A stretch of DNA of 63,391 nucleotides from the NCBI GenBank assembly GCA_000310025.1, contig FN649750.1, forward strand, positions 315,581 to 378,971, written 5' to 3'. Source of the DNA: Ectocarpus siliculosus (taxonomy: Eukaryota; Sar; Phaeophyceae; Ectocarpales; Ectocarpaceae). Both the position numbers and the translations under genes were made by a program. This document shows positions 16,026 through 63,391 of the stretch, piece after piece (positions within the stretch are counted from its first letter, which is position 1; the number at the start of each line of letters is the position of its first letter). A model generated the notes under the pieces. The model searched no databases. It had not been told where the DNA came from and was given only the letters and a program-made list of their open reading frames with translations.

Positions 16026-19000
16026 TCATGCTCCACCGCCGGCCGGCTTACTCTTCTGCTGGTTCCACAACCTAGCAATTCAACGTGGCGAATTGAAATG
16101 TTTTTGCAAACAAACGGGGAAAGGGGCACCATCACAAGGAGGACAGGGAGGTTCGGAGAGGGAATGAGAAACTTTTCGCCGCGAGTATCGTAAGGATAGG
16201 GAGTCAGGGGACCTTTTTGAAGATGAGATTCTGTCTGTGGAGAAACAGAGTGTTACTTCTGTAGAGAAAGCGGATGCTAAACCGGCACAGAAAACGTGTT
16301 AGTTTCTCGTTCGGAAGGTTGCGGCAATAATGCTCGGGGTGTTATCATGTGAAGCTGTTCCCGCAACACTAAGCATGATTGTAGCCGATAAGCCACAGCC
16401 AACGAGTGTACACGTGAAAAACGCCCACGACAACAACAACCGCTGCAGCAACAACAATCTCTTCATGAAATGCTAACTTACGTGGAGTACAAGCCCTTGA
16501 GGGCCAGCAGCTCGTCGTGTGTGCCGAGCTCCTGTACGCCCCCGCCGTTGAGCACGGCGATCTTGTCGGAGTTGCGAATCGTGGTCAGGCGGTGCGCCAC
16601 GGTAAGGGTCGTGCGCTTCTGCTTCGCCTGCAGCTGGTCAAGGGCCTCTTGCACCTAGGCACAAGTGAGAAAAAAATCGAAGTTCCCAACACGGCATAAG
16701 TAGAACTCGGAGGATGATGGTGGAAGAACACTGACACGTGTTTCATGCGATATCCGGTATCGCCGGCAGCAGTGCCAAATCCGGTTTGTTTGGCTGCTGC
16801 TGACAAAGAAGGTTGATTCAAGCTTACCACTTTCTCGCTTTCGTTGTCTAGCGCCGACGTAGCCTCGTCGAGGAGCAGAATCGGCGGGTTCCGTAGGATG
16901 GCCCTGGCGATGGCGATTCTCTGGACACGAGAAAACCAACACAATCGTCAGCACGTCGTTCACGGAGCAGCAAGGACGCGTATGCACAGCACAGTACAGT
17001 CGTTCACTTGGTGACAGTCGGACGTACAGTCGATCTTCCAAAATTCGTGCGCGTGTGACATCGCGAAGGATGCATGTACAAAGTCGTTTCTTGGCAACAT
17101 AATCGACCTTCCAATAAACAATCGTAGACGTACCCATAGTCTATGACATCGGAAAGCTTTCGTGCGCATTCGCTTTGTGAAGGTGCCAGCGTGTTTCGCC
17201 ATTCAAATTATTGGCAGGTTACCTTGGGTCCTTCATGTATGCACAGGAGTGCTTCGTTTTGAAGTGCTCGCCTTAGCTCACTGAAGGAGTGCCACCGACG
17301 AACAAGGCGACTGCTGCGGTGCGTAGAACTAGCTGGAGTTAGGAATTTCATACAACACACAGCGTATATTTCGCAAGTCTTAACTGCCCCTCAATGCTCT
17401 CACTTGCTTCTGGCCGCCGGACAAAAGAGCGCTCTTCTCTCCCACTTCAGCCTCATACCCTCCCTGGAGGTAACGTCGTAGAAAAAAACGTTGCATGACA
17501 AGTTAACCTCCGACCTTGGTATTTTGATGGAGGGAATCAAACTTTCGACATCCCTCTGAACGGTTTACTAGATAGTGTGGTAGATTGGAGCGGAACTGCT
17601 GCAAGCGAGCACCCCTTCATGCACGTTATATTCCAACTAAGAGTCTAGGTTTTGAGAGAATCTCCTCTCCTCTTCGGTCTCGCACACGTTATTGGTAACA
17701 CCTATGACTTCCTCTTCGTTTCGATGTCGCCACGTTGACAGACCGCTTGCAAGGGCATCCAAACACTCGATGACTTCAAAGCGTACAGGGTGAGGAAGAA
17801 AGAAGATAGCTCGAGGCAACGTGGTTGCGTAAGACAAAATATGCAACTATCATAGCATTGTCTTGTGTCTAGAACAGCAGGAACTTTTTCATCGGCAGGA
17901 TTGATCGCCCCGAACCTCTTCTCCAGGGTTAGCTTAACAGCCCTCCTTTCTAATCCAGTACGTTTCGCGTCGCAAAGTCGGGGTCTGGGTCTTTCGACTA
18001 ACCTGGAAGTCGCGTAAGATGAAGTCGTGGGCGTTGGCGGCCTTCGCGGCCTCCTGAATTCTCTCATCGCTTGCGCTGGGGTCGCCCTTGGCGATATTTT
18101 CGCGGATCGTTCCCTGGAACAGCACCGGCTCCTGACCGACGTAGCCGATCTTTGTGCGGTTCGCGTTGTAACAGAAACCGAGGCGAAATTCAAGCACTCA
18201 AAACCTCCGATAGTGGACATTCTTCGCTTCACGGCAATCGAGCACTGGGAATCCCGGGAAGTTGAGAGAAGCAACCAGAGTATCTCCAACGCACAGTCGG
18301 CGGGGGGAAACAACTACTGTAAGCACTGAGGAAGTGGACTGATAGAAGTACCCTCTCAACAGAATCAAGCTCAAATTTCGCCTTGGTAGGGAAGAGCGCT
18401 CCATTGAATAAATGTCAGTGTGTCGACTTTACAGCGCGTTTTATCAAAAGAAGCGGGGCGTCCTGAGTGAGAAGCACAGATCGTGCAATGTCCACCTCCT
18501 CCATGTCGCTGTGACGAGAATCAACCAGAGATACTCTTGTCCAGGGCATCCCATCCTTCCTGAAAAGTTCTGATATCATTCCGATACCGTCCTGATATAA
18601 TTCATCGTGTGGTATCTACGTGCGCCACGATCAAGAATGCAATCGAGTATCACCAACGCCAATTTTACCATTCGAAGGCAAGCAACGCATTTGTTGCATC
18701 CCGCAACAGAACTCGAGTGTGTACTTGGATCTACACGCCAACAACGCAAGTGAGGCATTTCATGCTGCTATCGGCACCTGCGAGCGGAGCCACGTGACGT
18801 TGACTTCCGTGATGTCGCGGCCATCGATTGTCACGCTTCCCTTAGAAGGCTCATAAAACCTGAGTAAAAGCCCCATGCAGGTGGACTTTCCCCCTCCGGA
18901 GGGTCCCACGAGCGCCACAGTCTCGCCCGCCGCGACGTTCAAGCAGAACCCTTGGGGGTACTTGTCCGATCCGTAGATCTGGTGACCGCAGGAATTTGCG

Positions 19001-22000
19001 AGACGTCGGCTTGTTGCAGTGTTCATCGGTGTGGCTGTGTTTTGGCTTCTGAATGTACTCCGAGCAACATTGTGATGGTGTTAGGGCCTTGAACGATCTC
19101 AACGTGGGTGGGGTTCAAAGCGTCGTCGTGGCACAATGGAGACCATTCCGTGACAACGGAGCGAAATGTATTGAGAACCAGTGTGCCTGCAGAGCACGAC
19201 CCAACAGGCAGGCATATCTTCGGCCCACCACACGTTTGTTTTCGTGCACTCTCGGCCCCCGCACTATCTATGTCCTACAGCCGAAGGTGAGTCCAGTGAC
19301 ACGCTAGACCTATGTATTAGCCAACGAGCGCGCCCGGAAGGAAAGGTAGCTGAGTACCATGCAGAGTATGCATGGAAGTTCAGGCTTGCCAGGCGACCCG
19401 AATGCGATCAGGGTGGAAAACCCTAGAATGTGAGGAATCCCTTATGACTTGGGGAAAACGTTTGCGAAAGCGACTTGTTATGGTGCAAGCATTCAGGACG
19501 TAGTTCACTAAGATAACACCAAGCAGGCAATCGCCGAGAAGAGCTCAGGAAGATATTTTCGAAGTCCAGACTGGCCAATAGATGGGAATATGTGCGTGGA
19601 CAATAATGAGAAGTTCGAACGTGAACGTTTTGCATCTTGACACTTCGTACGACATCGGGTACTTAAAAGATTACCGCCACGGAACGAAAAAGAAGGAACC
19701 AACAAGCAAAGTACCCCAAATCGATGCTATGGTAGGGGGGTGCACTTTTGGGGTGAAATCTTCCACTTCTGGGAGATAACGTGGAGTCCTGTTTCGGCTA
19801 TCGTACGGCGAAATAGGACGCCGCCAACAGGTATACGTAGAGTGTACGTCGCTCCCTACCCGAAAGTGTAACGCGAGGTGACCCCCTATACCGTAGCATG
19901 ACTCCCCAACCCACCTGCATGTTGGGCCTGCAAGGGTAGTTGAAGAAGATGTTCTTGAATTCGAGGGCGCCCTTGGTTTCTGAGGGTCTAGCCCCCTTCT
20001 CGGAAAGCGGGTCGATGTTCAGAGGCTCATCTGATGCATCGTTCAGATGGTGCGATATCGAGAACGCACAAAAAAAACATTCCAACCAGATGGGGATAAG
20101 AGTTTAGGAAGCAGTACAGGATCGCCCCGTCAACACCTGCCACTTCGATTCCATGTTTGGGGGTACCGTCCATTTTTACATCACTAGCGTGATACTTCTA
20201 TGGAAATAAAAAATATGAATTCGAAGGGGAGAGCTATTGATAATACTCAAAAGTTTCCGGTGAGAGCGCGCTGAAAACACTTTCAGACCGCGGGTATCCT
20301 TCAAGTTGATGCGAGTTACAATAATAGCATTGTTTCGCGGTGTCAGCAGCCCCCAAGTACACCACTTCTAGTTCAAGCTCCGGTCGACAGACCTAAGGGA
20401 TAGCAGTGAAAATACCCACAACAGAATCAATCCGACGGTATTGTTCAGTGCTAATAGATGAATCGGAAAAGTAGGTCGCACGAGCGGCGGGCGGCGACAG
20501 CAGAAGGACATAAACAGAACATCACAGAACATTTCACCACCTGTGAGACGGAAGATCTTTGCAGCCGCCTGTTGGCCTTTCCCAGCGTCCTTGAAGTCCC
20601 CGGTTATCTGTAGACAAAGGTTAGCGATGCTTAGCGCTCTCGAACCGGTAACAAAAAAAAAAGCGAGTCGGTAGGCTTCGAGAAAAATGCCAAGAACGTC
20701 ACCGTTTCTATCCGAACATGGCGATCATCGCGCTATCGTGGCGATAAGTGTCGTAAACCACGGAACATGATTCTTACTGGTGGAGCTATTCGCGAGGTGA
20801 TTGAAGTTCAATGCTAACGCGCTAGTAGCTGCTTACTCTTGAACCAACACCAAGCAAGGTCAGCCTGGCAATGTTGCGTCGGTCGAACGTCGAGCAACCC
20901 GCCTCAAATGAAGGAGTCGGTGTAGCAGTCGGCGTGACTTTGTTGAATCAAGCTTTATGATCAACGGGTCGATACTGTGTCGGACTCGTGGAGAGAGACA
21001 CAGGCCACCTTCGAATCGACATCGCCGAGAGTTACACGAGGTGGCAACCTCGTTTTTGTTGCGCCGAATATTCAGAGAACAAACTTCGAGAACTACAAGT
21101 CTTGACCAAAACGACATGGAGCTGGTCGGCGTCTAGATGCAACCCTCAGGATCAGACAGTTGCAGATATCTTGTTGGCCTCACAGACCCTGAAACTCGTG
21201 TGACTATTTCTCCTGTGGCAGAAGGTGGGCGGGGCCACCAATCGTACCTGTCCTACCCCGAAGGCTCCGAAGATGACCGCGAACATGGCTGTGAAAAAAT
21301 CTCCGTACTCGACCTGACCGTTGTCGACCATGATCGCCCCGACGTAAAACATGAGCGCAAACACCCAGAAGGTGATGCCCTGGCTGTAGCCGAAAGCCGC
21401 TCCAGCGATCAAGCCGCGCTTCCGTCGAGCATCGAGGGAGCCCTGACGGCAGCAAGCCAAACATGATCGAAAGGAGACACACGCACGCAACCACCACCAC
21501 CGCCGCCACACCAACAACAACAACACCAACAGAGAAAGCCACAGTGTAAGCGCCCGGGTTAGCGGCAACCCAAACATGATCGAAGAAAGACACACGACCA
21601 TCATCACAATGACAGAGCAAGCCACACGGCGTAAGCGTCCGGGTTAGTTAGCAGTACGTGAAGTCGTCCTAGCATACAGCAAACGGTATGCTTGGGCACG
21701 CCCTTTCGGATCGGTCGGAAGAGAAGCAAGAGAACCACACCTGAAAACACGAAGCAGGTGGTGGAAGAGTGGGAATATTGTGCAGATACAGACCATACCC
21801 GTTCCGCGGGACTACACCACTGTACAATCATTTTCGACACGTTTTTGTGTTGCCCATCGCCCAGGCTGCTGCTCCCACTACCGCGTACATCTCTCCACGA
21901 CCGGCGTTTCAATATTCTTCAAAGGACAAGCCGTCACCCCTCGTACGGTTGCGAATCCAAACGGTGAGCGTGGTGGGCGGGTTGCGTATCCTTCCTTGCC

Positions 22001-25000
22001 CTCGGTTGTGCTTGAAGCGAGCTCATCATAAATGGCTATGTTCCCCAAACAAGTAGGGAGTAGACGTTTCCGGCTACTACTTAGTATTACTTGAATTATC
22101 GAACCGACGGCTCTCAATTTTCAGTACCTCCGAGGCTTGCTTGTATTCAGCGGCGAGCCTCTCCTGCATGTTGAACGCGGCCACGGTGCTCATTCCCTGC
22201 AGGGCAGAGCTCAGCAGACCCGCCGCTTTGCCGCCGCCGTCGAGACCCTAAAAAAACGGTAGCACAACCCGGGGACCAATAACCGGTCAGCTCAGTCGAC
22301 TAACAGACCAGCCAGGCCCACCCTGCCCCTACTGCGTCTACTGTGAGCACAATTTGGCATCCTCTCAAGTATATCTGGTCACCAATCGGAGCGTGTGGAC
22401 ACAGTGTCTCGATTGGGAACACGAAATGCTCGGTAGGGGTGTGGCACAAAAGATCACGATGTGCTGCCGCTGCCGCCAAAACAACGAATCCTCACGTCGT
22501 TGTCCCCGTATCCTCCCGTCATCATTGCCATCTGAACGATCCCGGCGACCGCTATCAGGGGAATTGTCGCGATAGCGAGCAAACCTGGCAAAAGAAATAG
22601 CAACCATCAACCGTCAGGGTCTGCGTGAAGGTTGTAAGGAAAGCATGGCAAGGTGGTGTAAGGATGCCCAGTCTTTCCCAAAGCTCATAGTACGCAAGAA
22701 ATCGATTGTTCGAACCGAGTTACCGATCTGCCATGTACAGGATCAAAGCTAGTGGTTATTCGAAAAAACGACATGACACGGTGTTCAAGATCTCACCGAT
22801 CTGCCATGCGAAGGCAAGCCCGATGAGTGTTCCCACCGTAAGGGTCATCATCAGCTGGGTCGCGTGGGCAACGTTTCCTCCAGTCGCTTTTCGAACCTGG
22901 TCGAACATTCGAAATTTGATACAAGGGAAGGACATCACCAGTGTCGGCCCCGAGATTTTCTCAGCAGATTCGAATGCCGATGGCCCCACGTATTCCACCG
23001 CAAAGCATCGATCTAAGGGCTGTGCTACAACTGTTCTCGACCATGAGAAATTGCATTGAGTGACGCCCGTACTCAACGCGGTCAGTCAGGGCGATAGCAA
23101 GAACTTTCTCGGCAGAATCGGCCGGAATAATTGTTAACGCTACGCGACAGCAACGGCAACATTAGCAAACCACAACAACATACCCACCACCACCACCACC
23201 ACCACTACCAACAACAACAACAACAACAACCACGGCGAAGGCATCAAACACGACAACAACAATATTGGCAACGAAGACGACAGCAACGGCTCACCATAGA
23301 GGCCTCTGCCTCTAGGCGGGTTGTAAGGACACCAACTGCAGACGATTCTTCATCAAACCACGCGATGTCATGCCGCACCTAGTAAAAGGAGGTAGGGCGA
23401 AGGGGAAGGGCCAAAGAGAACATCGCGTGGGGGGTGGGACGCTAGCCTCGCTTGCCGCACTTTTATGGGTTGGAATCGCGAACGAGACGCAAAGTGAGGA
23501 ACAGTTTCATGTTTTCCGAGCGAAACGATGCGCGGGATGAATATTGAAGGCAGACGTTCGGGGGAAGCCGTCAAACGTAAGTGCATGATCAACCGTGTTT
23601 CCGAAATTGGAGAATCTGGTCCGATCATACCTCTTGTGATGGGTTGCGATTGAAATTAAAACCAATATCGAGGATGTGATGGGTTGCGAAAGCGTTTAGC
23701 ACGAACTTATGTAAACGCCTTCTATCCTACCCAGTAGGACCCACTCATGCATGTTCCCAAGCTATTTTACGATGGTTCGTTCGAAGGCACCTACAACTGG
23801 CTTCAGATTGGGCATGAATGATGGAAGTGCCAACACTCAAGTTCTCTCGTAGCGATAAACCCGGCTCGACGACGGTGCTCTCGTGATTCTCTCTCGGAAA
23901 CTCCTTTTCTGGATACTGACACAACGTTCGGTTTCAAGGGGTTAATCCCTTCGACCGCTCTCAGTCACCGCCGACCAAGAATTGTCAAGGGACTACTACA
24001 GTAGCTCCTTCAACCCAGCGAAGAAAGAAGTGTGAGGTGGTCGATTCCCGATGCATCCCCCCCTTGCCATGCGCCGCTAATTGCACATCAAGAAGGTGAG
24101 TCTTCTACTCGATTCCCAGTTTATGTGGTGCGGAGGGTTGATGCTTGGTCTGCGTGCATGGCAAATTCCCAGTTTATCTGATTCGGAAAAGTGCAATGAT
24201 TCATGCTTGTCGAGAATCAAACCCGTGATCATTCTTGTGTAGGTTTTAACGGGCCGATGTCCTTACAGACCGTCTCAAGGTCTTGTGCTAGGTTCTACGA
24301 GATCTAACCCCAATGTCCACTGACTGTGTCGTCTTAGGGTTTAGCACCCTGAACCTACACTTGACTTGTATTTAACTTCCTCGAAGCAAACAAGAGCAGC
24401 GGCATTCACGGGGTGCGAGCTGTATGCCCCAACTTACACAGGCTTCTTACATGCACTTGGTTTGGGTACCAGATCGACAGTATCCCAGGAGCGCACATGA
24501 CAAGAACACCCGTCACTACATAGTTAGACGCTTCCGAACAGTGATGACTTGAGAGGTGTCAGCCTTACCATAGCCTCGAACGCCATGTATCGCAGAGTCC
24601 TCGTCAATCGTTCGCCTGACACGGTGAATCCAGTCGACAGGGCCATGTTTCCCACTAGGTTGAGGAATCCGAGCCCCACGAAGCCGAGTGCCCAACGGTT
24701 GCCGATCTTGCGCATTTGTTCCGTGTCTTCCAGGTACAAGTTGCTCTAGTTGAAATGAGGAAGACGTTTGTTTTCGGACAATTGGATGGGTACAGCACCC
24801 GCTATGTGGAAAAGGTGTCGGTTATCCTTGAGGTCATGGTAGTTGTAGAGGGAAGTACGTGCGGGTCAAGAGCCAAAACTGCCCTCAACAAGCGATATTT
24901 GGTGTGTGTGCCATCCTAGTTAGTCTGGACGTCGATGGTTACACTTTTGTTTCGGCATTCGTTTGGACACACCAGCTGGGGTTACACAGGAGGATAAGCA

Positions 25001-28000: not shown

Positions 28001-31000
28001 AATAGGATGCCCCAATTGCACTAGTAGCTCCTGACAGCGAAAAGCAACAATCGCGCCCACCTCGATGAAGTCGTGCGCGTTCGCAGCCTTTGCGGCCGCA
28101 ACAACTGCAAAGTTCGGGACGGTTTCCGATGGAACCAACAACAGCAGGGCAGAAAGATCAGTCGACAGCGACACGTGGTATGATTAGACGAGGTGACGTC
28201 ATGATGGATAGGATAAGGGTCAAGTGTTCGAGGTAAACCTCCGACGGTGGTAGAACGTTCTTGACTTCTTCGAATCGCTTCGGCCGACGTTTCACAGAGA
28301 GACACCTTTAATGCTATAGATACCAATAGAGACGTCAGATCTGTAGATGGATTTATCTTCGGCGTGCTTCAGCCCATAATAACCGGACGAAACAAACCAT
28401 AGCTTCAAGCCAATTAATAAAACCGCCCTACGACGCCACGAAGACTGTTCGGTAAGCATAAGAACGTTACAACTTGTTGACCAGGCGAAAGGTTCGGAAT
28501 GTGTCACTTCCGTGCTGTGGATGCCCTGGAGGTGTTTTGATGGCCAAGGTGAGGGGTGCAATCCTGGGGTAGCACTGTACTGCGCTTGCTCGAAAAATCT
28601 CAGAGTTCCATTCATCTATCAGGTATTTACGAGGCAAAAATGAATGTCAAGCAGATCGGGAAAAAAATACGGTATAAGAATGTCAAGCAGATGGAGTATT
28701 CTTTTTGACCCCGAATGGCACCTCCCTCGTACAGAAGAGAGGGTAAATGCGTTGGATAAACCCGCTAGAGCGACGGTCCGCTGGGGGAAAATGCGCAATG
28801 AAATGACAATCACACACCCATTCAAACACGGTTCCTTACTTTCGTCCTGGGTGGCGGCCCCGTGCTTGCCGTTGGCGATGTTGAGCCCGATCGTTCCGGC
28901 GAATAGCACCGGCTCTTGCCCCACGTAACCGATCTGACAAACACACACGGACAACAAACTTTAGAAATGAGCCGCCAGTGTAAAATCTAACTTGCTTCTC
29001 GGATGCGGGGCCATGGGCACTCATTACACGAGCCCAAGCGATTGCTCTAGCTCCAGATTCCTCGTCGAACTGAAACCTGCCACGGTTCCCAGTTCGAGAC
29101 GTGTGCTGACGGGATAGCAGGTGATTGCACGAAACAAGGTCGATTACCATCGAGCTCAGGATGTACCTACGAGAGAAGGTGGTCTCAGTCTTCTGATTCG
29201 TCAAGGAAAATGATCTCACAGCGGCTGCCGCACCTGCTGCCTGTACCAGGCGACGTTGAGAGACTTGATGTCCGTGCCGTCGAGACTGACACTCCCGGAG
29301 GTGGGGTCGTAGAAACGCAGCAGCAGCTTGGTTACGGTGGACTTGCCTCCGCCGGACGGCCCGACGAGGGCGAGGGTCTTGCCGACGGCTACCTCTAGGC
29401 TGAGGGAGTTGTACACCACGTCGTTCGGCCTAGCCGGCTGTCGCCCGCCGTCGACGCAGAGACAGAGAAGAAATATAACTTAGAGTCGGCAACAAGGCTG
29501 AGACGACCCTAGTCCTACAGCGCACCTGCGATTGCACCAACACAGAGGGAGATGATACAGCACACCTTCGCATTTCCACGCGGCCCTACTGCAAATTCAA
29601 AGCACCCCCAGAAGGATCGAACACAGTGGAGGGGCCCACTCACGTAGCTGAAGCCCACCGTGTGGAAAACCACCTTCCCTTCCACCTTGTCCGGCTTGAG
29701 TCCGTCCTTCGAAGACGAGTCGATCGGGGGCGTGCGCTCCAAGGTCTCGAACACCTCCACGGCGGCTCCGCGAGCGATTCCGACGGCGGTGATACCCGGA
29801 GCGGTTTGGCCCAACATCATCGCCCCCATAAGAACGGCAAATATCGACGAGAGGACTTCGCCGCCTGTACGGCCGCCGCCGTCTGCAACCTGTTCACAAC
29901 CAGAATCGGCCGGGAACAACAAGCGAGGAAGAAGATGAGTGACGGCGAGCGTTCCAATGTCCTCGAGCAGGTCTTCCCGGCGCTGTGACCAACAGCAACG
30001 CAGACTTTCTTGAGTAGGATCGGAGCGGAATGTGAGGAGGTGCCACGATAGAACGGAGGGTGTAATTGAGTCAGGACACAATTTTTTTCGGCAACAACAA
30101 AAATGCCAACAATAACAACAACAACAATGTAGAAAACAACAATGCCACATAAAAGGGCTGCATTGACAAGAGGCTTGCCTGCTTGGTGCCGAACCAGAAG
30201 GCGAGGCCGTAGCTCGAGTAGAAGGCCATGAACAACGCCCCGTTGCCGAGGCCCGTAGACACGCCCTCCTTCACCCCGGCCGCGTACGCGCCGTCCAGGT
30301 GAGTGGAGTAGCGCTTGAGCTCGATCTCCTCCGAGCCCAGGGAGGCCACCGTGCGGATGCCACTGAGGACCTGGTGACACCACAAGCAACAACCCGCATG
30401 TTGAAGCATTAGACGACGACAGAGATTGAACCTGGTGACACCACAAGCCAGAATAGAACCCAGATATTGCAGCAATAGATAGGGAATGGACTTCTGAGAA
30501 CCTGGTGATACCATAAGCACGAACCCAGATGTTGAAACGTTAGACGACGACAGCGAATGAACCTCGTGGCACCACAAGCCTAACCCCAACCAAGATGTTG
30601 AAGCAATAGATGGAGAATGGGCTACTGAGAACCTGGTGACACCATAAGCAACAATCCAGATGTTGAAGCGTTGGGCGCCGACAGAGAATGGGGCTGCAGC
30701 ACATACGGGCGGGGCGGGCGCCACCGAGAGGTTGTGAACTAACAACCAACAGCAACCGAGATCCACCAAAGAAGCAACCTGATCATACAGTATTTGTTCT
30801 TTGCCGACTGCGGCGTTGGTGGGGAGTCCTTTCCACGATCAATGACAGTTATTTGGAGCGGGCCAAGGGCTACGTTTGAGAAACAGCGCAACAAATAACA
30901 GCTCCTTCGAAAAAACAAATTTACTCAGGCTCGGGCTCACTTCTGTTACATCAATGTCAACCCTGTATACGCAATGTTCAAACGCGTTGGGGCATGTTAG

Positions 31001-45100: not shown

Positions 45101-46702
45101 GTTCAATCTCACGTCCATGGTTTCTGTGGTCCGTCTCCTCTCGGGAGAGGAACGAGGTAGCGTCACTGCGGGTTGCTTTACGGGAGCTGTCTTTCTCATA
45201 ACCTAGGTTTGTTTTCTTATCCGAGTACAACAGTACCGCGGACGACAGGCAAGACACAAACCTCAAGTGGTTGAACAAAACAAGCACTCGCTGTTGCAAA
45301 AAACACTTTGGGCACTGACGGCTGTGGCCGTGGTGCGTGACAGCGACATGAGAGAGGACTCCAGTATCGGAAGGCGTTTGAAACTGCTGTGCCAGTCGAA
45401 GCGGCACCTAAACGCGGTCCAAACCACGGGATCAGTCCCCCGATGCGGAAAGCGAGAGAAGAATGCGGTGCGGCCAATGTATTCTGTACAGGTATCGATG
45501 GATGGCGTTGCTCCCCATACCACACGCCTCGCGGTTGGTTCCATGGTTTATATCATACCGGCCAATGAAAACATGATAATCGGTTGCGTCGAATGTTTGA
45601 CAAGACGAAAGAGTTCAACATACATATGGCTCCTTGCGAGATACAAAGGCAAGTGGGTGCACCACACCCTAAAGCCCCCCCCGTAGCCTTCGAGGCCATC
45701 GCAGCATTTTTTTTTTTTTTTTGTCTTCACTTCTAATCAGCGCTCACAGCACTAGTAGTGCCGTTTACTCCAACCCGTGGTCACACAGAAGCGCCCCTCT
45801 CTACCCTCTACCCTCCTGCGGTACTTTGCCTTCGATTTTTAATGCGAGAAGAGTTCAGCACTCTCTTCCCTCTGTGTACACACGAACTAGCGCTGTCCAC
45901 TACATTATGGCGGATAACGCATGCAGTCGGGCAAGTCAGGTTAGGGTTTTAGGGGTAGGGTCTGCGTAGCCCCTCCCCGTTCTATTTCCTCAATAACCTT
46001 TAATTTTCTCGCGAAGGCACCCCCCTAAAGGCCTCAAATAAGTTACAAGTATGAGCACATCCTCAGGAGGGTAAGTTGAGATTCGATTTCATTCAGGGAG
46101 TCACGCACATCGCCTGGCAAAAACGGACGGGGGGGAACCACAACCCGATTCCGTCGATTGTGACATGTTTCGGGGGTGGAAAATACGCAGCTTACACAGG
46201 GCGTCAGAGAAAAGGCGACCCCGGTTGACGCGTGATGATGTCGGAAGGGAGAGATGTGTGATTGGCGTGATTAAGTGCAAGTGTGTCAAGGTTGTCAGGT
46301 GTGGGGAGTAACGCCGGGAACGGTCCACGGGATGGCGCAAGGCGGACATTCGTTTCTTCCGACTGTACATTACAGCAGTAGTCTACGCCGCATGAACCGT
46401 TGTCCATGTATCTCTTGTGGCGTACATAATTCAATCTAGCTAGACACCTCCGTAAATAACACCTTGCACTGACTCGGTACCGCATTCCTCAGCACGTCGC
46501 AACACGACGCACGTGTCATATGCAGTGCTAATTGATGATGTAGCAGCCAGGCAGCGAGCTGCTGCTGAAGTAATCAAAATCAATACCTGCACACGCCCAA
46601 GTGATTGCACGGCCCGAAGGCATGCAGGCGCTCCTTGCCATCGATCTCTTCGACACACACTACGCAGTGTGTGTGCTCCACGCTTAGGCCCTCCTCCGCC
46701 AT
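36753..46702 (-). CDS. ZNF598: ZNF598/Hel2-type RING E3 ubiquitin ligase, ten exons
   Basis: This family ubiquitylates 40S proteins on collided ribosomes and starts ribosome-associated quality control. Exons in transcript order: 46702-46587, 44840-44739, 43852-43735, 43016-42915, 42058-41978, 41275-41069, 40249-40145, 39730-39647, 39315-38297, 37953-36753. Phases close to 1044 aa. The N-terminal RING is split by intron 1: C13-VV-C16, C32-N-H34, C38, C41, C54-VL-C57. Cys/His zinc fingers follow from about residue 115 to 265 (for example CGVENCPQPKC, CEFCKTRFYD, CHICEKQG, HFLCEEEEC). The long C-terminal part is low complexity (Gly, Ala, Pro) and carries repeated acidic-FP motifs (NFPTLSG, DFPALGG, DFPGLPG, DFPSLPE, DFPGLPM), also a feature of human ZNF598. 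The last two exons end with MAFGFR. The gene is divergent from the SEC14-like gene across 250 bp. Confidence 0.93.
40292..40455 (+). repeat. Perfect 82-bp tandem duplication, ZNF598 intron 6
   Basis: Two identical 82-bp units starting CTGAGGTGTGCGGTGTGCG and ending GTACGTGACGTGATATAC, at 40292 and 40374. I see no mismatch, so it is either very recent or an assembly duplication. Confidence 0.92.
40457..40507 (+). repeat. CT dinucleotide run, ZNF598 intron 6
   Basis: About 25 CT units directly after the 82-bp duplication, continuing into a CT-rich stretch to about 40700. Confidence 0.97.
40819..41039. mobile_element. MITE copy 2, ZNF598 intron 6
   Basis: Arms start ACCGTTACGACACAGATAACA at the left and, as reverse complement, ACCGTAAACGACACAAGATA at the right, sharing the CACACCC-core and CGATTTTCARAGCT block with copy 1. 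The interior lies in the opposite orientation to copy 1. Its right end is 30 bp from the donor of exon 6. Confidence 0.85.
42113..42195 (+). repeat. GACA tetranucleotide array, ZNF598 intron 4
   Basis: About 20 perfect GACA/CAGA units, flanked by related GAGA and GTGT sequence. Antisense frames read Val/Cys/Leu/Ser repeats and are artefacts. Confidence 0.97.
42537..42905 (+). repeat. Minisatellite based on TCTCCGATACCGA-type units, ZNF598 intron 4
   Basis: About 25-30 diverged units of 12-16 bp such as ATCTCCGACCCC and ATCTCCGATACC. The array starts within about 10 bases of the exon 4 donor. Confidence 0.88.
43484..43771 (-). repeat. 144-bp tandem duplication that includes the ZNF598 exon 3 donor
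   Basis: Two copies beginning CCCATCACGGCAGCTGCATG at 43484 and 43628. The right copy contains the true end of exon 3 (sense KKFVRPLQ then GTATAC). The left copy, in the intron, reads AAFVTPLQ then GTATTT, so a fragment of exon plus donor has been duplicated. Confidence 0.8.
44245..44440 (-). mobile_element. LINE 3' end fragment (copy e), ZNF598 intron 2
   Basis: Antisense copy: a G-rich tail, then TCATGTTCTGCACGCC, a CTTTGACCGCGCGTCCTCGAG block, TGTTCCCACAGGACCG and CCTACTTCGCAAAAAAGTG. It ends at a region matching GACAGGA...GGCGGGAAG of the LINE. Confidence 0.8.
44920..45130 (+). repeat. Minisatellite, TTCCATSTGACTTCCATGGTA unit, ZNF598 intron 1
   Basis: Seven or so diverged units of 20-35 bp. 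Minus-strand frames read repeats such as MEVRWK and MEGSTVE and join with exon 2 out of frame, giving a long false ORF. Confidence 0.85.
45706..45905 (-). mobile_element. SINE fragment with T-run (antisense), ZNF598 intron 1
   Basis: Reverse complement of the 3' two thirds of the SINE at 49469: a T-run, then CTTCACTTCTAATCAGCGCT, CCCGTGGTCACACAGAAG, TTCAGCACTC and CTAGCGCTGTCCACTA. The tRNA-like head is missing. Confidence 0.82.
45906..46020 (+). repeat. Dispersed repeat with telomere-like core, copy 1
   Basis: GGATAACGCATGCA, then GGTTAGGGTTTTAGGGGTAGGG, TCTGCGTAGCCCC, TTCTATTTCCTCA and a CTCGCGAAGGC end. Related copies at 51556 and 53794, and the 80-bp tandem at 7472. Confidence 0.75.
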
Positions 46703-50902: not shown

Positions 50903-52466
50903 GTAGTTGGAACGCACGAGGGCTATCTTGCAGAGGACGTCCGACGGTTTGGGCAAGGCCTGCGTAATCATCGACTACGTCGGCTTCACTCTCCGGAACG
51001 CCCCGAAGATGAAGACAAGCATGGCGACCCTCAACATCCTGCAGAACCACTACCCGGAGACGCTCGGACAGGCGTTCTTCATCTCGCCGCCCGTCGTCTT
51101 CAAGGGCTTCTGGAAGGCGAGGAAGCTCTGTATCCTGTAGTTAGTTTTGGAAAGCCGCTATTGTTGTAACTTTTCCGTTAAACCTCCGGCTGCCTTTTTC
51201 TCGGCTATTGAAGCCGAAATCAAACCACTAGACTATTAGTCAGCCGCCGTTGTATGCGACGTTAAACCTCCTATAGTAGCCTATCTTCCTTGTATTTTCC
51301 TCGGCTATTGAAGCCGGCATCAAACCATTAGATTCCATAGCCAGCGCATGTTTGATTTCCGCTTCGGGTCCGAATGACCCGGGCGAAGCACGGCGAAAAA
51401 CCCACGAGCTCCCCGCCTTCCGATGGCCGGTACTAACAAAGAATAGACGGTGCACACGCTACTTAAGCGACACGCGTTATGATCGGCGATGCAAGGTATC
51501 TTGTACCCTATTGCTCTTGAGTGGCCTTCGCAGGTTTTTCGTCTTAAGCAAACATGGTGGATAAAGCATGCAATCGGGGAAGTTAGGTTAGGGGTAGGGG
51601 TAGGGTTATAGAATATTGTCTGCGTCCCCCCTCCCTGTACTATTCCCTCATTCAATTATTAATTGCGCGAAGGCGGTCCTTGCTCTTTGGGCCCGCTCGC
51701 ATGCGTCACGACGCGTTGTTTTTTTCCGCGGCTTGTTTAGGTGATCTACCCGTTTATCGACAAGGACACCAAGGAGAAGTTTACCTTTGTTCCGGGCAGC
51801 GCGACATCGCCGGCCGCGCAAGAGGTCCTCGCCAAGAACTTTGACATGGATGTGCTCGAGGAGGTGATTTGGCAGCCATCTGTTATTCTGTATCGCCTCC
51901 AAAGTAGATGCATGCACTGACGAATTAGCGAGAGGAAAATGGTGTGGTTGGTTCTGAAATTTGTTCTTGGTTTGCTTGGGTTGTTTTCCGCGAGCGATCT
52001 GGTCTTCCTGGTCTGTCCCGAGGATGCACTGCTCAGATGCCGATACGAGAGCAACAAGCACCTCTCTCGTCCCTCTCCTCTCCTGGCCCACCTTCCTTGC
52101 CTCATGGTTTTCGCGTTACCGCCTACTGCTGCATACTCGTTTCGCTGCCCACATCCTCAGACGTACGATTACATCCCGCCACTAAGAGGCCTTTGACCCC
52201 CTTTTGCAGGAGCCACTTGTGGCAAGGTAGAAGGGCCGATTGGCCATCGGTGATCGGTCCTGTGGGGACAATGCTCCGCGCTCTCGTGGTCAATGGTCTA
52301 ACCGCTAGGGCGTGCTAAACATGACTACCCCCCCCCCCCCGCTCTGCAGGGAATCGGAGGAAAGTACGCAACAAAGTTTGACTCCTCGATCTACCTGGCG
52401 GCGCCGTTGGATCAAGACTACCGGGAAGCCCTCTTGCTAACAAATTCAGGAACAGGGGCCAGCTAA
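46953..52466 (+). CDS. SEC14/CRAL-TRIO lipid-transfer protein, five exons
   Basis: Cytosolic proteins of this family bind and transfer phosphatidylinositol or other lipids. Exons: 46953-47201, 49224-49382, 50907-51116, 51741-51863, 52350-52466, all phase 0, giving 285 aa. The CRAL-TRIO N region is LVRYLRAREGSIEKAAAML with TLEWRREFGFP (residues about 39-70). The lipid-binding domain starts with ENSTGKNYVSGFDSHGRP and RPRCENTTDHDG. It continues with ACVIIDYVGF, MATLNILQNHYPETLG, FFISPPVVFKGFWK and VIYPFIDKDTKEKF, all typical. The C terminus is short (SIYLAAPLDQDYREA). The exon 3 donor appears to be GC (TGGAAG then GCGAGG), which restores FWKVIYPF. The exon 1 end is the least certain point. Introns contain two MITEs, a SINE and a LINE tail. 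Confidence 0.88.
47305..47512. mobile_element. MITE copy 3, SEC14-like intron 1
   Basis: The interior (TCCACGACGAAGAGGATGC, then ACGGTTCCAACGCCGTCG) matches copy 1 in the same orientation. The right arm, CCAGGGGGTGTGGTATCTTA, is clear. The left arm is strongly diverged (starting near GTAGGTTGCGTGAG), so this copy is probably old. Confidence 0.75.
49469..49776 (+). mobile_element. tRNA-derived SINE, nearly complete copy, SEC14-like intron 2
   Basis: The 5' head resembles a tRNA: TGGTCTAGTTGG fits a Pol III A box and GGTTCGAATAT a B box about 40 bases later. A second A-box-like word, TGGCCTAGTGGATAGCG, follows near 49586. The unrelated body contains GTACCGCAGGAGG, CCCTTCTGTGTGGCC and GAGCGCTGATTTGAAGTGAAG, and the element ends in an A-run of about ten. 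Antisense or partial copies at 35253, 45706, 61072 and 62705 share the body, which defines it as a family. Confidence 0.8.
49823..50049. mobile_element. MITE copy 4, SEC14-like intron 2
   Basis: Left arm ACCGTAGGTTGCATACGTAA then GATATCACACCCCCTGG. The right arm, reverse-complemented, is CCCGTAGGTTGTATGACGGA then AGATACCACACC. The interior lies opposite to copy 1 (TGGAACCGTCTC). The outer arm sequence pairs it with copy 3 rather than with copies 1 and 2. Confidence 0.85.
50775..50905 (+). repeat. ACT trinucleotide / 18-bp compound repeat ending at an acceptor
   Basis: Units of (ACT)4-GCA, about six in number, then a pure TAC/ACT run that ends in ACTGTAG, the 3' splice site of SEC14-like exon 3 (exon starts 50907). 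Confidence 0.92.
51556..51677 (+). repeat. Dispersed repeat with telomere-like core, copy 2
   Basis: GGATAAAGCATGCAATCGGG, GGTTAGGGGTAGGGGTAGGG, GTCTGCGTCCCCCCTCCC, CTATTCCCTCATT and a GCGCGAAGGC end, in SEC14-like intron 3. Confidence 0.78.
52190..52340 (+). mobile_element. LINE 3' end fragment (copy f) abutting the exon 5 acceptor
   Basis: Starts near AGGAGCCACTTGTGGCAAGG, passes ATTGGCCATCGGTGATCGG, CCTGTGGGGACAATG and GTGGTCAATGGTCTAACCGC, and ends AACATGACTA plus 14 C. Only GCTCTGCAG separates the C-tail from the exon 5 start at 52350. Confidence 0.88.
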
Positions 52467-53793: not shown

Positions 53794-53930
53794 ATAAAGC
53801 ATGCAAAGGGGGAAACAGTTGGGTTTAGGGTTAGGGAATAGAGTCTGCGTACCCCCTCCCTGTTCTATGTCCTCAAAAACTGAATTATTTTTTCCTCATT
53901 AACTTAATTTCTGGCGAAAAGGCGGTCCAG
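53794..53930 (+). repeat. Dispersed repeat with telomere-like core, copy 3
   Basis: GGATAAAGCATGCAAAGGGG, GGGTTTAGGGTTAGGG, GTCTGCGTACCCCCTCCC, TTCTATGTCCTCA and a GGCGAAAAGGCGG end. Confidence 0.78.
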
Positions 53931-56604: not shown

Positions 56605-59600
56605 TTACTCGCCCGTGAGCTTGCTCGTCTGCTGGTTCCACAGCCTGGGGGTTTCCAAACAAGACGGCGTTGTTGGGAGACGGAAGACGGCGGAGAAAAC
56701 GGGACGATGAGTGAACCATAAGATATTCCGAGAAGCAAACGGAAGAAAGAATTGTACCACGTTCGGAGATGGGGAAGGAGTCGAAAATGGGACGATGAGT
56801 GAACCATGCGGTATTTCCGCCCAACAAAAAACGAAGCAAGAATTGTACCACGTTGGGAGACGGGAGAAGGGCTGTAAATGGGATGATGAGTGAACCATAC
56901 GGTGTTCCGAGCAACAAAAAAGGAAGCAAGAATTTTACCATGTTGGGAGACGGGAGAAGAGGGGATGATAAGTGAAATACTTTTTATGGTATTCAGAGCA
57001 ACAAAAGGGCTACAGAAAGAGGTGTTACGGTAGCATGAAAAAAATCCAGAGCCAATGAGTGTAGCATAAAACACGTCCACGAAACCGACAACGGCTGCAG
57101 CAGCAGCAACAAGCTCTTGGTGTGAAACACCAACTTACGTGGAGTACAAGCCCTTGAGGGCCAGCAGCTCGTCGTGTGTGCCGAGCTCCTGCACGCCCCC
57201 GCCGTTGAGCACGGCGATCTTGTCGGAGTTGCGGATCGTGGTCAGGCGGTGAGCCACGGTAAGGGTCGTCCGCTTCTGCTTCGCCTGCAGCTGGTCAAGG
57301 GCCTCTTGCACCTGGGTGCAAGTCAGAAAAAAGATCGACGTTCCCAAGACGGCGGAAACAGAACTCGGACAATTAGCAGGTGGAATGATGATTGATGGGT
57401 GGTGGTGGAAGAACACGACAACTTACGCTGTTTCATTTTGTAGTGCTGGTGATGGCGCCAACTCCGGTTTTGTTTTGTTGACTAGTTGACGCTGGCAAGG
57501 AAGGTGTGCTTCCTTCAACCATAGGATACCACTTTCCTTGCTCTTGCACTGAATGACCGACTCACCACACTCACCCTCACTGACCGACTCACCAAGTTCT
57601 CTCTCTCTCTGTCTCTCCCTCTCTCTCTCTCTCTCTCTGTCTCTTACTGACTGAATGACCAGACTCAAAACTCGCTCTCTCATTGACTGATTGACCACGT
57701 CTGTCACTCTCAGAGTGATTTCACTGACTCAAGCTTACCACTTTCTCGCTCTCGTTGTCGAGGGCCGAGGTAGCCTCGTCGAGGAGAAGGATCGGAGGGT
57801 TGTTGAGGATGGCCCGGGCGATGGCGATTCGCTGGGTGAAAGAGGGACGACGCGAACAGGCAAAGAGGGAGAGGAGGGTTCCGCCGTCAGCTACTTGAAC
57901 ATACAATACGGTACAATGTACTCCAGGAAAAAAACTTGAAACCGTCATGACGCAAGCAAAAACTTCAAAACCAGGTACCTTGCGTAAGCATAAGGGCAAA
58001 CTAAGTCGGAACTTCGTACGCTTCGTGTGAAGCGAATATGTACGTGCTAGAGTGTCCGTAGGAAACTCCGTCCAATTTTCCCACATCGCAGCATATGACC
58101 ACACGATCTACAGTACTTCTGTTGACATGATTGGTAATCTTTCGACGCACCGTGTTTTATATTTTACTTTCCTTGGAAATCGATCCAGGTGCGTGACATC
58201 TTAGGTAACCTGCGATACTCGAGGTGTTTTGATGTTACCTGCTTCTGGCCCCCGGACAAGAGAGCGCTCTTCTCGCCCACGTCAGCATCGTAGCCCTCCT
58301 GCGGGGCACCGTAACATCACCAGACGACCAACCGGTACGGAGGCACGCACACCCGGGAATTGCCGATTGTGTGCATGCAGGACCCAGCATGCCGAGCAAA
58401 ACGACACAACAAAGGCCAAGGGGTAAGTGGTAAAGGGAGACATTAGTGAAGGGACAAATGACACCCGTGCACCACTGGCGTAACTAACGCGGACGGGATC
58501 TACGCTGAGTCGCATTTTGCGATCAGCTGCCCGTACCAGAAGTCTACCTCAATCCGACAACAAGATTGCCAGGTGAAATCTAATCAAAAAGAAAAGCGAC
58601 GCACAAACAAATGGTTGTAACATTGTAACATCGCGCTTCAACTAGCCGTGGTACCTGCCGCAGGTGGACAGTAACGAACCTGGAAGTCCATGATGAAGTC
58701 GTGGGCGTTGGCGGCCTTGGCAGCCTCCTGGATTCTGTCATCGCTTGCGCCGGGGTCCCCCTTGGCGATGTTTTCGCGGATCGTTCCCTGGAACAGTACC
58801 GGTTCCTGACCCACGTAGCCGATCTGGGCAGCAGGAGGATGAGGAGGAAGGGGAAAGAGCCCAGCAGAGAAACGAAAGGAAGAGGTCATGGATCGGTACA
58901 GACGAAAAGAGCGTAGGCGCAGCCGAGGAGTTGGTGTAACTCAAACGTGCGTGGTCTTTGGGTGCGATAAGCCAGCTCTACACCAGGTAAGCAGGTACAA
59001 CAACACCGCCATCATCAACCACAAGTGTACCCACAGCAGGAACAACAACAACAACAACACTACGCCGAGCGAGAAGCACAAAAGACTGCTACAACCAAAA
59101 CACAACCAAAACAAACAACACAAAATACTCATGTGCATGCACACCTGCGAGCGGAGCCACTTGACGTTGACCTCCTTGATGTCGCGGCCGTCGATCGTCA
59201 CGCTCCCCTTAGATGCCTCGTAGAACCTCAGCAGCAGCCCCATGCAGGTGGACTTTCCCCCTCCGGAGGGCCCCACGAGCGCCACCGTCTCTCCCGCCGC
59301 GACGTCCAAGCAGAAGCCTTGGGGGTACTTGTCCGATCCGTAGATCTAGGGTTAGGATTAGGATTAGGGTTAGGATTAGGGTTAGGGTTTGGGTTAAAGT
59401 TAAGGTTAAGGTTAATAGGGTTAGTTAGGAGACCCATGGAATTTACGAGGAGACTGGTGAGTAAGTGGGCTGTCGGGACTGTTCATCGATGCGGCGGTGT
59501 CTTGACATCTCCTTAACGTACTCCGAGCAAGATTGTGTTGGTGCTCGAGGCTTGAACCATCGCAACGTGTCATTTTTCGTTGATTTGCCCGATCACGAAA

Positions 59601-62600
59601 GTGAGCGGATTTAGACGGTTAGCCAGGGAGAAACAGCCGGGGGCACGCGGAATATATCGGCGGCACACGGGGGGTAACGTAGGGGACTCGCCTTGGTTTC
59701 AAGTGCAAACCTCGGCGTTGTTTGTTAAGCACATTCAGCATGTGGCAAGAAGAAATTGTCCAACATGGACACCGTGTACAGCAGTAGCAGCAGTAGCAAC
59801 AACACCAACGACCAAGCTACAGAACAATCGGCGCCAGCTGCAGTACCCGCAGCAGCACCAGCAGCACCAACAACAATACCAACCAACCAACACTACCACC
59901 TCCATCACCACGAACCTGCATGTTAGGGCGGGAAGGGTAGGCGAAGAAGATGTTCTTAAACTCCACGGCGCCGTTGGTCGTCGCGGGCCTGGCTCCCTCC
60001 TCGGACAAGGGGTCGATGTTCAGGGGCTCGTCCGTGAGGCGGAAGATCTTTGCCGCCGCCTGTTCTCCTTCCCCGGCATCTTTCGCGTCAGAGCTGATCT
60101 GAAACACCAGAGAGACAAAGAGAAGAGGGGGGGGGGGGGACGTCAGAGGACAGGGCCCTGGGTTTCGAAGGCGGGAACATCTCTATCGGCGTGGAACATC
60201 TCGCCGTCCCCTGTGCTCTTTGTCTCTCTCTGTGTGTCTCTTCTCCCGCTCTCTTCTGTCTCTGCCTCTTCCAGAACCTGTCTGCCTGTAGTTTTCGTAG
60301 CTGTCTTTCTTCACCTCTCAGCACCAAGAAAAGATACCGATTGTTTCGCACACCGCTAAACACGCTCAGGCTGCTTCCTCTCCACAAAACTATTTATCCG
60401 AAGGATAGTGTCCCCCCACACTACCAACGTGAAGTACTCCCTCCCGGCAGTATCCCGCCAGCAGTATTGTACCGTGGCACCGCTCACCTGTCCAACCCCG
60501 AAGGCTCCGAAGATAACCGCGAACATGGCCGTGAAGAAGTTCTTGTACTCGATCGTACCGTCATCGACGAGCACTGCTCCCACGTAGAAGAGAAGCGCGA
60601 ACACCCAGAAGATGATGGCCTGGCTGTAGCCGAAAGCCGCTCCGGCGATCAGGCCGCGCCGTTTGCGGGCGTCGAGGGAACTCTGGGGCGGGGCGGGGCG
60701 GGGCGGCGGGAAAAAACAAAGCACGTACGCGCAAAGGAGTTTCACAGGAGGTAAAGTGGGGCGTTCAAGCAACATGGAAGATAAGGCGAAAACACAAACA
60801 CGTAACACGCACAGCAGTATCGCTGGAGAAAACGGATGTTGTTGTTGGTGTTGCTGTCTTCACATTGGAAATTGTTCCGGTCTCTGCTCAGAAAAGGTAG
60901 GGCTAAAAACAAAAAAACAAACAAAAAACAAACAAAAAACGTCCCGTGGGAATCTATGTGACCCCGGCTGATGCGTCACACACATACTAGAGGAAGAGGG
61001 GTGTCGACTGGCACCAGAATAGACGGGAAGGAGCACACACACAGATGGTGGTCGCTTCTTCGATGCAAACCATTTTTTTTTTTTTGTCTTCACTTCAAAT
61101 CAGCGCTCACAGCATTAGTGCTGTTTACTCCAACCCGTGGTCACACAGAAGAGCCCCTCTCTATCGTATGCATAGCAACAGAAAATAGTGAGCCAACAGT
61201 TCCCAGCTCTCGTCAGATGACAGATGTGATTTTAGATAGATGCATACCTCGGACGCCTGCTTGTAGTCCTGTGCGAGCTTCTCCTGCAAGTTGAAGGCAG
61301 TCACCGTGGTCATCCCCTGAAGGGAGGAGCTCAGCAGACCCGCGGCACCTCCGCCACCGTCAAGACCCTGTCAACAACAAAACAACAAAAAAGCGATTGT
61401 TTTCACCTCCGTCAATACGGTCCTCTACTGGCCACACCGTTTCGTCGGCCAATCAGGACGACGCGCGGGGCATGCGGCAGAGCAGCAAAACGGTGTGTTT
61501 GAGCTAGCCTGGAGTCCGAACACATGTGAGTCGTGGATCAAAGTCAACCGAACATCCTGTCCTTGAGGAACCGGCCGATCGAACACAGCCCTGGTCGGCC
61601 GCGCACTTGCCATGCGGCGCACCATAAACCAAACACAACGGTGCACCATAAACCAAACACAACGGTGTTCAATAAACGCAATCAATTGTATTCAGATACT
61701 CGTGTGGATGTATTTTTGGCTTTGGGGACGACAAAGACGAAAAGACTGCCGAAGCATAGAGGTTGGTTTGGTCGGGTTGATACCAAGCACAAGATAAAAC
61801 ACCCACGTCATTGTCACCGTAGCCTCCGGTAAGCATCGCCATCTGCACAACTCCCGCGGCGGCGATCAAGGGGATCATGGCCATGGCGAGCAGTCCTGCG
61901 GGAGTAGGACGAGGCCAGCATGACATGCATGGGGTCGGATGAAATCTCCGACAAATGAAACAGAGTGCTCGGCAGGGACTGGCCCACGATGGCCATTATA
62001 GCCCAGATATTCACACATACCAGGTACATCGATCACACTAAAAAAAACGCAGATCGCGCTTAGTTTAGTTGGATAGTACCTGCAAAGGTACACACTGTAT
62101 CGGGAATAATTCTTGTTCGTTTCTCGTTCCGTTCATCGACTGGCGGGACCACCAAAACAACAACGAGGCCAACAACACCGCTTCGACAGGACCCGGGCTC
62201 TCCGCTGCTATTAATATAATAGCTCTCATCTCAGCCCTGACCTCCATCCCATTGCGAAGTACCTCTTACTATCTCTTACCGATCTGCCAGGCGAAGACAA
62301 GACCGATGACGGTACCGATGGTCAGGGTCATGATCAGCTGGGTCGAGTGGGCAACGTTGCTCCCGGTCGATCTCCGCACCTGGGTAGGGGACACACCGTG
62401 AAGCATCCCCGGGTTTGCCATGAGAAACACATGTAATGTGTGTCTCGGGCGAGGATCGTACCTCTGAAGTAACTCGAGAGTCGGAGAGATGGCACCACCG
62501 TGCACTAGTAGCGCTTATCTGCGGCGCACTTCTCCACAAGTAGGAGGGTGCGAACATCAACCGGTACCTCTCAGGAAAGCCCTCGACGACATGTTTCCAA

Positions 62601-63220
62601 AACTACAGTACCCTTTTCGGCATTGATTGTGGAGAAATACGCCACAAAACAAATGCTGACACGGGGGTGCCATCTCTCGAATATTTACGGTAGGCTTTTA
62701 TATGCTCATCAATTACTTTGCATCAGCGCACACACACAGCTTTTCTGATGGACGAGAGCTCCAATCCGTGGTGGTCACTCACACAGAACGGTTCCTCTCC
62801 CCACCCCTCCCTCCTGTGCTGTTTGCCTTCGATTGTTTACTCGAGGAGAGTGCAAGCAGCACTGTCTTCCCAAAAAAAAGCAAAAGATTTTTCGCAAATC
62901 TGCAAGCTAACAGGCCGCCAACCGTTCGTCCCGTACGAGCACGGCGTACCACGGGAAAAAGGGTTGGTGCTGGTTATCGTGTGGGAGGCAAAAATAACCA
63001 GGATACAAGCAATATACCAACCCCGGGTTTTCTACCACCATACTTCTCGCTTGCTCACGGAAGCCGCCCGAGGCAGTTGGACCAATACGGATATTAGAAG
63101 GTAAGGATTAGAGACAATAACGACAACAACACTCACCATGGAAGCTTCCGACTCAAGACGAGAGGTGAGGATGCCAACTGCGGAGGATTCCTTGTCGAAC
63201 CACGAGATGTCGTGCCGCAC
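56605..63220 (-). CDS. Second ABCB/MDR-type ABC transporter, C-terminal half (partial; continues past the window)
   Basis: Twelve exons in transcript order: 63220-63137, 62379-62280, 61895-61807, 61367-61248, 60682-60488, 60098-59916, 59345-59145, 58823-58680, 58298-58239, 57831-57739, 57311-57139, 56644-56605. Phases close; 493 aa are visible. It starts inside TMD2 ([13 protein letters not shown]), passes the membrane and coupling segments, and ends with a complete NBD2: Walker [53 protein letters not shown]. It terminates [13 protein letters not shown]. Exon lengths match the last exons of the ABCB gene at 16026 except that one intron is absent here, one exon is a codon shorter (HDFIMDFQ against HDFILRDFQ) and the last exon is shorter. 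All NBD2 catalytic motifs are intact. TMD1 and NBD1 should lie to the right of the window. Confidence 0.93.
56672..57000 (-). repeat. 90-bp minisatellite, about 3.6 copies, last intron of the second ABCB gene
   Basis: Units begin GTTGGGAGACGG at 56672, 56761 (variant), 56852 and 56942 and contain GGACGATGAGTGAACCATA and AGCAAGAATTGTACCAC. The array lies about 30 bases upstream (sense) of the final exon. Confidence 0.9.
57597..57645 (+). repeat. CT-rich dinucleotide stretch, second ABCB intron
   Basis: Interrupted CT repeats with GT substitutions; the sense strand is GA-rich. Confidence 0.85.
59346..59425 (+). repeat. Interstitial telomere-like array at a 3' splice site
   Basis: About 80 bp of GGGTTAGGATTAGGATTAGG and related 6-7-bp units decaying to GGTTAAGGTTAA. 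On the sense strand this reads CCTAACCCTAG and runs straight into the exon at 59345, so the acceptor AG and pyrimidines belong to the array. Confidence 0.9.
61072..61170 (-). mobile_element. SINE fragment (antisense), second ABCB intron
   Basis: T-run, CTTCACTTCAAATCAGCGCT, CACAGCATTAGTGCTG and CCCGTGGTCACACAGAAG, the reverse complement of the 3' end of the SINE at 49469. Confidence 0.82.
62705..62860 (-). mobile_element. SINE fragment (antisense, diverged), second ABCB intron
   Basis: CATCAGCGCACACACACAGC, CCGTGGTGGTCACTCACACAG, then CTCCTGTGCTGTTTGCCTTCG and a GAGAGTGCAAGCA end follow the order of blocks in the other antisense copies, but the T-run is lost. Confidence 0.65.
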
Positions 63221-63391
63221 CTAGGGGGGGACGTCAAACGGGACCGAGAAACCGGGGGGTGGGGGTTAGCCTGTGGCGCACGATCAATGTGGGGAAAGCT
63301 CGACATACGATATGAAGACAGAACGAGGTCGTGGTGGTGTCCCGAACACACGCGATATCGCCCCCCTCACGATAACGCTCACACACATGCT

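Follow-up and report, generated by a model that had tools for sequence, protein, structure and literature searches.

In Ectocarpus siliculosus, the intron that precedes the Walker A exon of one ABCB-type transporter gene ends in an 80-nt degenerate telomere-like repeat, (CCCTAA)n, which is absent from the homologous intron of its closest paralogue. The locus is real, and it is most simply explained as a telomere-like insertion that arrived by chance at the end of the intron, in front of an acceptor AG that was probably inherited, and that is tolerated by splicing. We give this reading a probability of roughly 0.6.

The insertion and the paralogous introns

The window, i.e. the whole stretch of 63,391 nt that was analysed, covers positions 315581-378971 of contig C25, whose sequence extends to position 4345011 or further. 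On its minus strand the window carries three ABCB-type transporter genes, with a fourth (g4) just outside; g1 (~16.4-23.4 kb) and g2 (~57.0-63.2 kb) are the closest pair. A protein search with the g2 Walker A exon gave 12 matches in all, four of them close together on C25, at 100, 94, 63 and 62% identity, and the remainder, which are weaker, elsewhere. Together with the exon that follows it, the Walker A exon matched ABCB1 chains with an E-value of 1.9e-58. The search of the window against Rfam gave no matches above the gathering scores.

From the letters of the DNA alone it had been claimed that about 80 bp of repeats sit exactly at a splice acceptor of the second gene, between the exon and intron sequence shared with the first gene, whose own acceptor is normal. 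Alignment of the two introns, which had been proposed as a check, bore this out: the 80-nt insertion is present in g2 and absent from g1, and was placed between CC and AG, directly against the acceptor AG (Table 1). The g2 intron ends ...CTAATCCTAATCCTAACCCTAG/ATCTACGG (the slash marks the splice junction), and the g1 intron before the homologous exon ends ...TGCGGTCACCAG/ATCTACGG. The sequence on both sides of the insertion matches g1 up to the junctions, and the alignment revealed no telomere-like seed or repeat remnant at the homologous place in g1. Where the introns can be aligned beside the insertion, the two genes share 82% identity, and the blocks GGAATTTRCGAG, GTTCATCGRTG and TACTCCGAGCAA, named in the original claim, were found in both; the remainder of the two introns gave no convincing alignment. 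The homologous exons of g3 (~29230-29440) and g4 read through this intron position, and the two genes are therefore unusable as an outgroup for the insertion.

No other stretch of the window is nearly as telomere-like as the g2 array, which has a local score of 58 against a perfect array, compared with 25 for the next independent site. Tandem Repeats Finder delimited its core at 59347-59414 (period 6, 11.3 copies, score 80), and CCCTAACCCTAA, allowing at most one mismatch, has 9 matches in the window (0.16 expected), 5 of them inside the array. Aligned to a perfect repeat over 83 columns, the array departs from it by two gaps and 9 mismatches; the variant unit TCCTAA occurs three times, and CCTA is present at both ends of the insert. 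As expected of a short interstitial telomeric sequence (ITS), the array is a tandem telomere-type repeat away from the chromosome end, at a site that is empty in the homologue (here the paralogue g1), with flanks little changed.

Table 1. Features of the g1 and g2 introns and other telomere-like arrays (L numbers are surveyed loci)
Feature	Position	Strand	Basis or description
g2 predicted acceptor AG (CCCTAG/ATC)	59346..59347	minus	top AG by weight matrix; frame and paralogue agree
g2 telomere-like insertion, degenerate (CCCTAA)n, 80 nt	59348..59427	minus	alignment to g1; 3' end of g2 intron
g2 inherited 3' intron part, homologous to g1 18981-19110	59428..59570	minus	102/125 aligned columns identical
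g2 Walker A exon, ABCB-type (...WLRSQ)	59145..59345	minus	Pfam ABC_tran, E 2.1e-12
g1 homologous exon	18778..18978	minus	94% protein identity to g2 exon
g1 acceptor AG, GGTCACCAG/ATC, no array	18979..18980	minus	alignment
L119, putative acceptor side			main run 77 nt, then TATATTCAG, then FANCL exon; PDB E 6e-7; Pfam 0.027, below cut-off
L013, putative acceptor side			102-nt decayed array, GCAG, SNF2-like exon; PDB E 7e-4; Pfam 0.0026, below cut-off
L110, putative acceptor side			18-nt array, 25 nt before CCP5-like exon; PDB E 3.5e-6; no Pfam match
L042, putative acceptor side			array, CCCCAG, then open frame without believable family match
L061, L101, putative donor side			array from second base of possible intron (G/TAACCC, G/TAAGCC) after open frame without family support
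L121, putative donor side			array ~36 nt into possible intron
L072, putative donor side			G-sense array 12 nt after exon of dihydrolipoyl dehydrogenase / mercuric reductase kind; PDB E 2.7e-12; Pfam 2.1e-7
Largest repeat family, members in window	45941-45960, 51585-51607, 53823-53838		
Largest repeat family, members outside window			L015, L017, L026, L029, L033, L037, L046, L048, L050, L068, L092, L108

Divergence between g1 (16390-23382) and g2 (57043-63224) at four-fold sites falls in the 3' direction, from 10/17, 11/15 and 12/21 in upstream exons to 8/36 in the exon next to the array and 3/33 in the last exon, which suggests a later exchange in the 3' part of the genes. The two genes also differ by an intron of ~510 bp, found in g1 (20031-20542) between KIFRLT and DEPLN and absent from g2 (~60030-60036); this difference is a gain or a loss between g1 and g2.

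Predicted use of the acceptor next to the array

The AG that adjoins the array is very probably the acceptor of the g2 intron, as judged by a small weight matrix for which 19 further g1 and g2 acceptors were used: it scored highest of the 21 AGs between 59285 and 59899, and the next upstream AG starts 110 nt from the exon (33 nt in g1). Its score of 3.8 is low compared with the 19 training acceptors (1.1-13.7, median 9.4, not leave-one-out), the lowest of which is an acceptor of g1. The AG stands at the exon boundary, in frame, after pyrimidine-rich sequence that contains no AG. The reading frame continues after CCCTAG in agreement with the paralogue, and the predicted spliced junction reads ...AACATGCAG/ATCTACGG...; upon retention of the intron, the TAG before ATC would be an in-frame stop.

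Two further parts of the sequence-only reading were confirmed: the acceptor CCCTAG is now part of a telomere-like unit, with its AG adjoining the array, and CTAAC motifs are present in the array, repeatedly. CTAAC fits the general branch-point consensus, which may not be that of this organism. The proposal that the array became a splice site fared differently. An AG occupies the corresponding position in g1, so that of g2 is probably inherited, with the change confined to the upstream sequence. The array sits between inherited intron sequence and this probably inherited acceptor.

The orientation of the array is compatible with splicing, as the transcript would carry the C-rich strand: of the 20 nt preceding the AG, 14 are C or T, and the 80-nt insert contains no AG, the strand being AG-free until its last unit. 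The G-rich strand of the repeat has one AG per unit. The branch point may lie within the array or at an older site upstream; because the C-rich strand lacks AG, the old AG would be the first to be met from either position.

Short tandem repeats immediately before a 3' splice site have been described in other systems, and the g2 array resembles them in this respect. The UG-rich/T tract before CFTR exon 9 is reported to affect splicing (PMC12171016), as is a GTT repeat near the acceptor of Arabidopsis NTM1 (PMC12177298); CFTR, like g2, encodes an ABC transporter. The g2 array differs from both in its telomere-like unit, a possible source of branch-point-like motifs, and is not known to affect splicing. 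Plant telo boxes likewise are telomere motifs within genes, some of them in introns, but the work on them concerns isolated short motifs in the context of promoters and 5' UTRs (PMC3022908); neither "splic" nor "acceptor" appears as a term in the main text of that paper. Among the papers listed by searches of open-licence PMC literature, no title or abstract opening reported telomeric repeats as splice sites, which is a weak negative.

Telomere-like arrays elsewhere in the genome

In the 189-Mb genome (492 contigs), the 18-mer (CCCTAA)3 has 692 matches, compared with 5 for a control pattern. For the survey, 40 regions were fetched around 100 of these matches, together with 51 of the 58 sites of CTAACCCTAACCCTAG (30 loci, and 21 sites in 20 regions) and 20 of the 50 sites of a pattern fixed at the array start. 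This gave 111 distinct arrays, with the g2 array left out; comparison of flanks was done on these and five window sites, 116 in total. A (TTAGGG)n telomere has been reported in Ectocarpus (PMC11541908), as has a subtelomeric satellite with TTAGGG in each monomer. The satellite, like the g2 array, is a case of a telomere motif embedded in brown-algal repeats, but according to that report it is tandem and located at chromosome ends (PMC11541908), whereas the g2 array stands alone in an intron.

Nine families that share flanks hold 48 of the 116 arrays. The largest comprises 15 arrays, of which three lie in the window; in its members a short telomere-like run lies in a common context (e.g. GGGAGGGGG.ACGCAGACC...CCCTAA...). 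Telomere-like runs also occur in a satellite-like family (GTGACACGTGACAAAA...GGGGGCCCTAACCC) that accounts for 12 compared arrays, including L019, L030, L045, L063, L077, L097 and L102, and in every unit of an 80-bp tandem repeat (2.8 copies) at 7464-7685 of the window. At L095 (~110-150), (TTAGGG)n and (CTAACC)n stand head-to-head as an inverted telomere-like repeat near an open reading frame, and at L074 (~1390-1520) an 18-nt telomere-like run falls within a MORN-repeat exon (Pfam MORN, 6.9e-6) or immediately behind it. The EsV_1_7_cys family has at least 150 matches (150 scored of 880 candidates) and none in 14 control genomes; the domain is reported to have proliferated in brown algae and to be known otherwise mostly from giant viruses (PMC12477816), and its abundance here points to a brown-algal genome.

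Other arrays do occur at splice sites (Table 1), so that the survey for telomere-motif acceptors suggested by the sequence-only reading turned up further cases; it gave no enrichment on the acceptor side. Scoring as an acceptor required an AG no more than ~45 nt from the array, together with an open coding stretch that was 60 nt or longer and exceeded a fixed score. The coding model, trained on 874 codons, has low power and misses L013 and L042. With this test, acceptors were found at 2/111 arrays in C-rich and 0/111 in G-rich sense, compared with 1.4% and 2.7% of 1088 control positions, a result limited by the small sample and the weak coding model. These counts agree with arrays falling at random in a genome rich in introns; introns are reported to make up ~46% of the Ectocarpus genome, with an autosomal median length of 524 bp (PMC12477816). 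As the acceptor-side flanks are at chance level, chance placement together with tolerance explains the arrays at acceptors.

Donor signals were found at 3/111 arrays in C-rich and 2/111 in G-rich sense, compared with 0.55% and 0.64% in controls. The signal at L119 was dropped as the antisense of its own acceptor exon, which leaves four believable cases against ~0.6% per side in controls. This small excess is not predicted by plain chance placement.

The acceptor cases with homology support (L119, L013 and L110), as well as L042 with its open frame, all have the C-rich sense; L110 comes from the sample drawn with a pattern that ends in TAG, a choice biased towards this orientation. In G-rich sense, none of the 111 arrays had an acceptor with a coding flank. 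Perhaps the wrong orientation is removed at acceptors, on the strength of three or four cases against none, one of them from the TAG-ended sample. Three candidates were rejected as acceptor cases: L069, with a short-chain-dehydrogenase-like match below the Pfam cut-off (E 0.0025) and a downstream AG that could be the real acceptor; L123, an array-filled stretch between two possible exons with no consistent frame by eye; and L055, whose array lies ~60 nt before the likely acceptor.

Origin of the insertion

The insertion most likely came to the g2 acceptor by chance, as one among several hundred arrays scattered through the genome. It could have been made by telomere-type repair or by a microhomology-guided insertion at the CCTA of the acceptor, and would have been retained because in C-rich sense it does little harm. 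Break repair of the telomere type, the origin suggested in the sequence-only reading, is a plausible source. According to Nergadze et al. 2007 (PMC2246262), the short ITS of mammals arose by insertion at double-strand breaks, and at 31 of 130 rodent ITS loci the flanks are described as unchanged, with the bases of the break site in register with the repeat (PMC2246262). The g2 array is similar in being a short internal telomere-like array present in one of two homologues, with unchanged flanks and site bases in register; it differs in that the comparison was made with a paralogue and not an orthologue, in that the array abuts an acceptor, and in that an origin by break repair is putative here. 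The CCTA that flanks the insert on either side is compatible with telomerase or break repair but also with slippage, and is not diagnostic. This ambiguity counts against the chance-insertion reading, as do the low acceptor score, the donor-side excess and the extent of decay of the array, which allows an origin before the duplication.

A possible, if unlikely, alternative is that the ancestral acceptor already had one or two telomere-like units (e.g. CTAACCCTAG) which expanded by slippage in the manner of a microsatellite, with neither telomerase nor break repair involved. Slippage would copy variant units, as seen for the three TCCTAA units, and in g2 a (CCCCG)n tract at 60685-60706, which is missing from g1, lies right against another acceptor (exon start 60682). 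Against it, g1 has no telomere-like seed at the same place, and tandem repeats in general are without clear enrichment at g1 and g2 acceptors: 3/20 acceptors have one within 30 nt, compared with 11% of random positions, and 3/20 within 5 nt, compared with 8%.

It is also conceivable, but doubtful, that the array was present before g1 and g2 split and was then deleted from g1. The decay of the array bears on its age: 9/83 columns is of the order of half of the local divergence accumulated since the split or the last exchange (23/125 intron columns and 8/36 four-fold sites of the exon), and is thus close to the divergence per copy, which makes an origin before the duplication possible alongside the insertion after duplication proposed in the sequence-only reading. 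A deletion from g1, however, would need to be precise to the base and to leave a working AG, and no remnant of the repeat is seen there.

That the array breaks splicing and g2 is becoming a pseudogene is very unlikely. The low score of its acceptor would agree with such a fate, but one g1 acceptor scores even lower, at 1.1, the g2 exons that were compared are open and in frame, and the changes between the two genes (those of both copies being counted) are concentrated at four-fold sites, 66/153, compared with 63/666 at codon positions 1 and 2. Delivery by a mobile element containing telomere-like repeats, for which the flank-sharing families could be a precedent, is hardly credible, since both flanks match g1 up to the junctions and those of the g2 array are common to none of the 115 other arrays compared. 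None of the nine families therefore brought the array in, and a dispersed repeat element was rejected as its source on this ground.

Under the favoured reading of a chance insertion tolerated by splicing, the g2 locus alone is a neat curiosity and probably neutral. More generally, telomere-like DNA in C-rich sense may be suited from the outset to serve as a 3' splice site, an attractive idea with a handful of further examples, but not an established one. In its full form, in which the C-rich strand is a recurrent ready-made 3' splice site in this genome, tolerated near acceptors only in that orientation, so that scattered telomeric DNA is a standing source of new or length-variable acceptors, we regard it as speculative and rather improbable. 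If the orientation rule did hold genome-wide, telomere-type insertions could remodel intron ends without breaking the gene, and splicing could be tuned by the length of the array.
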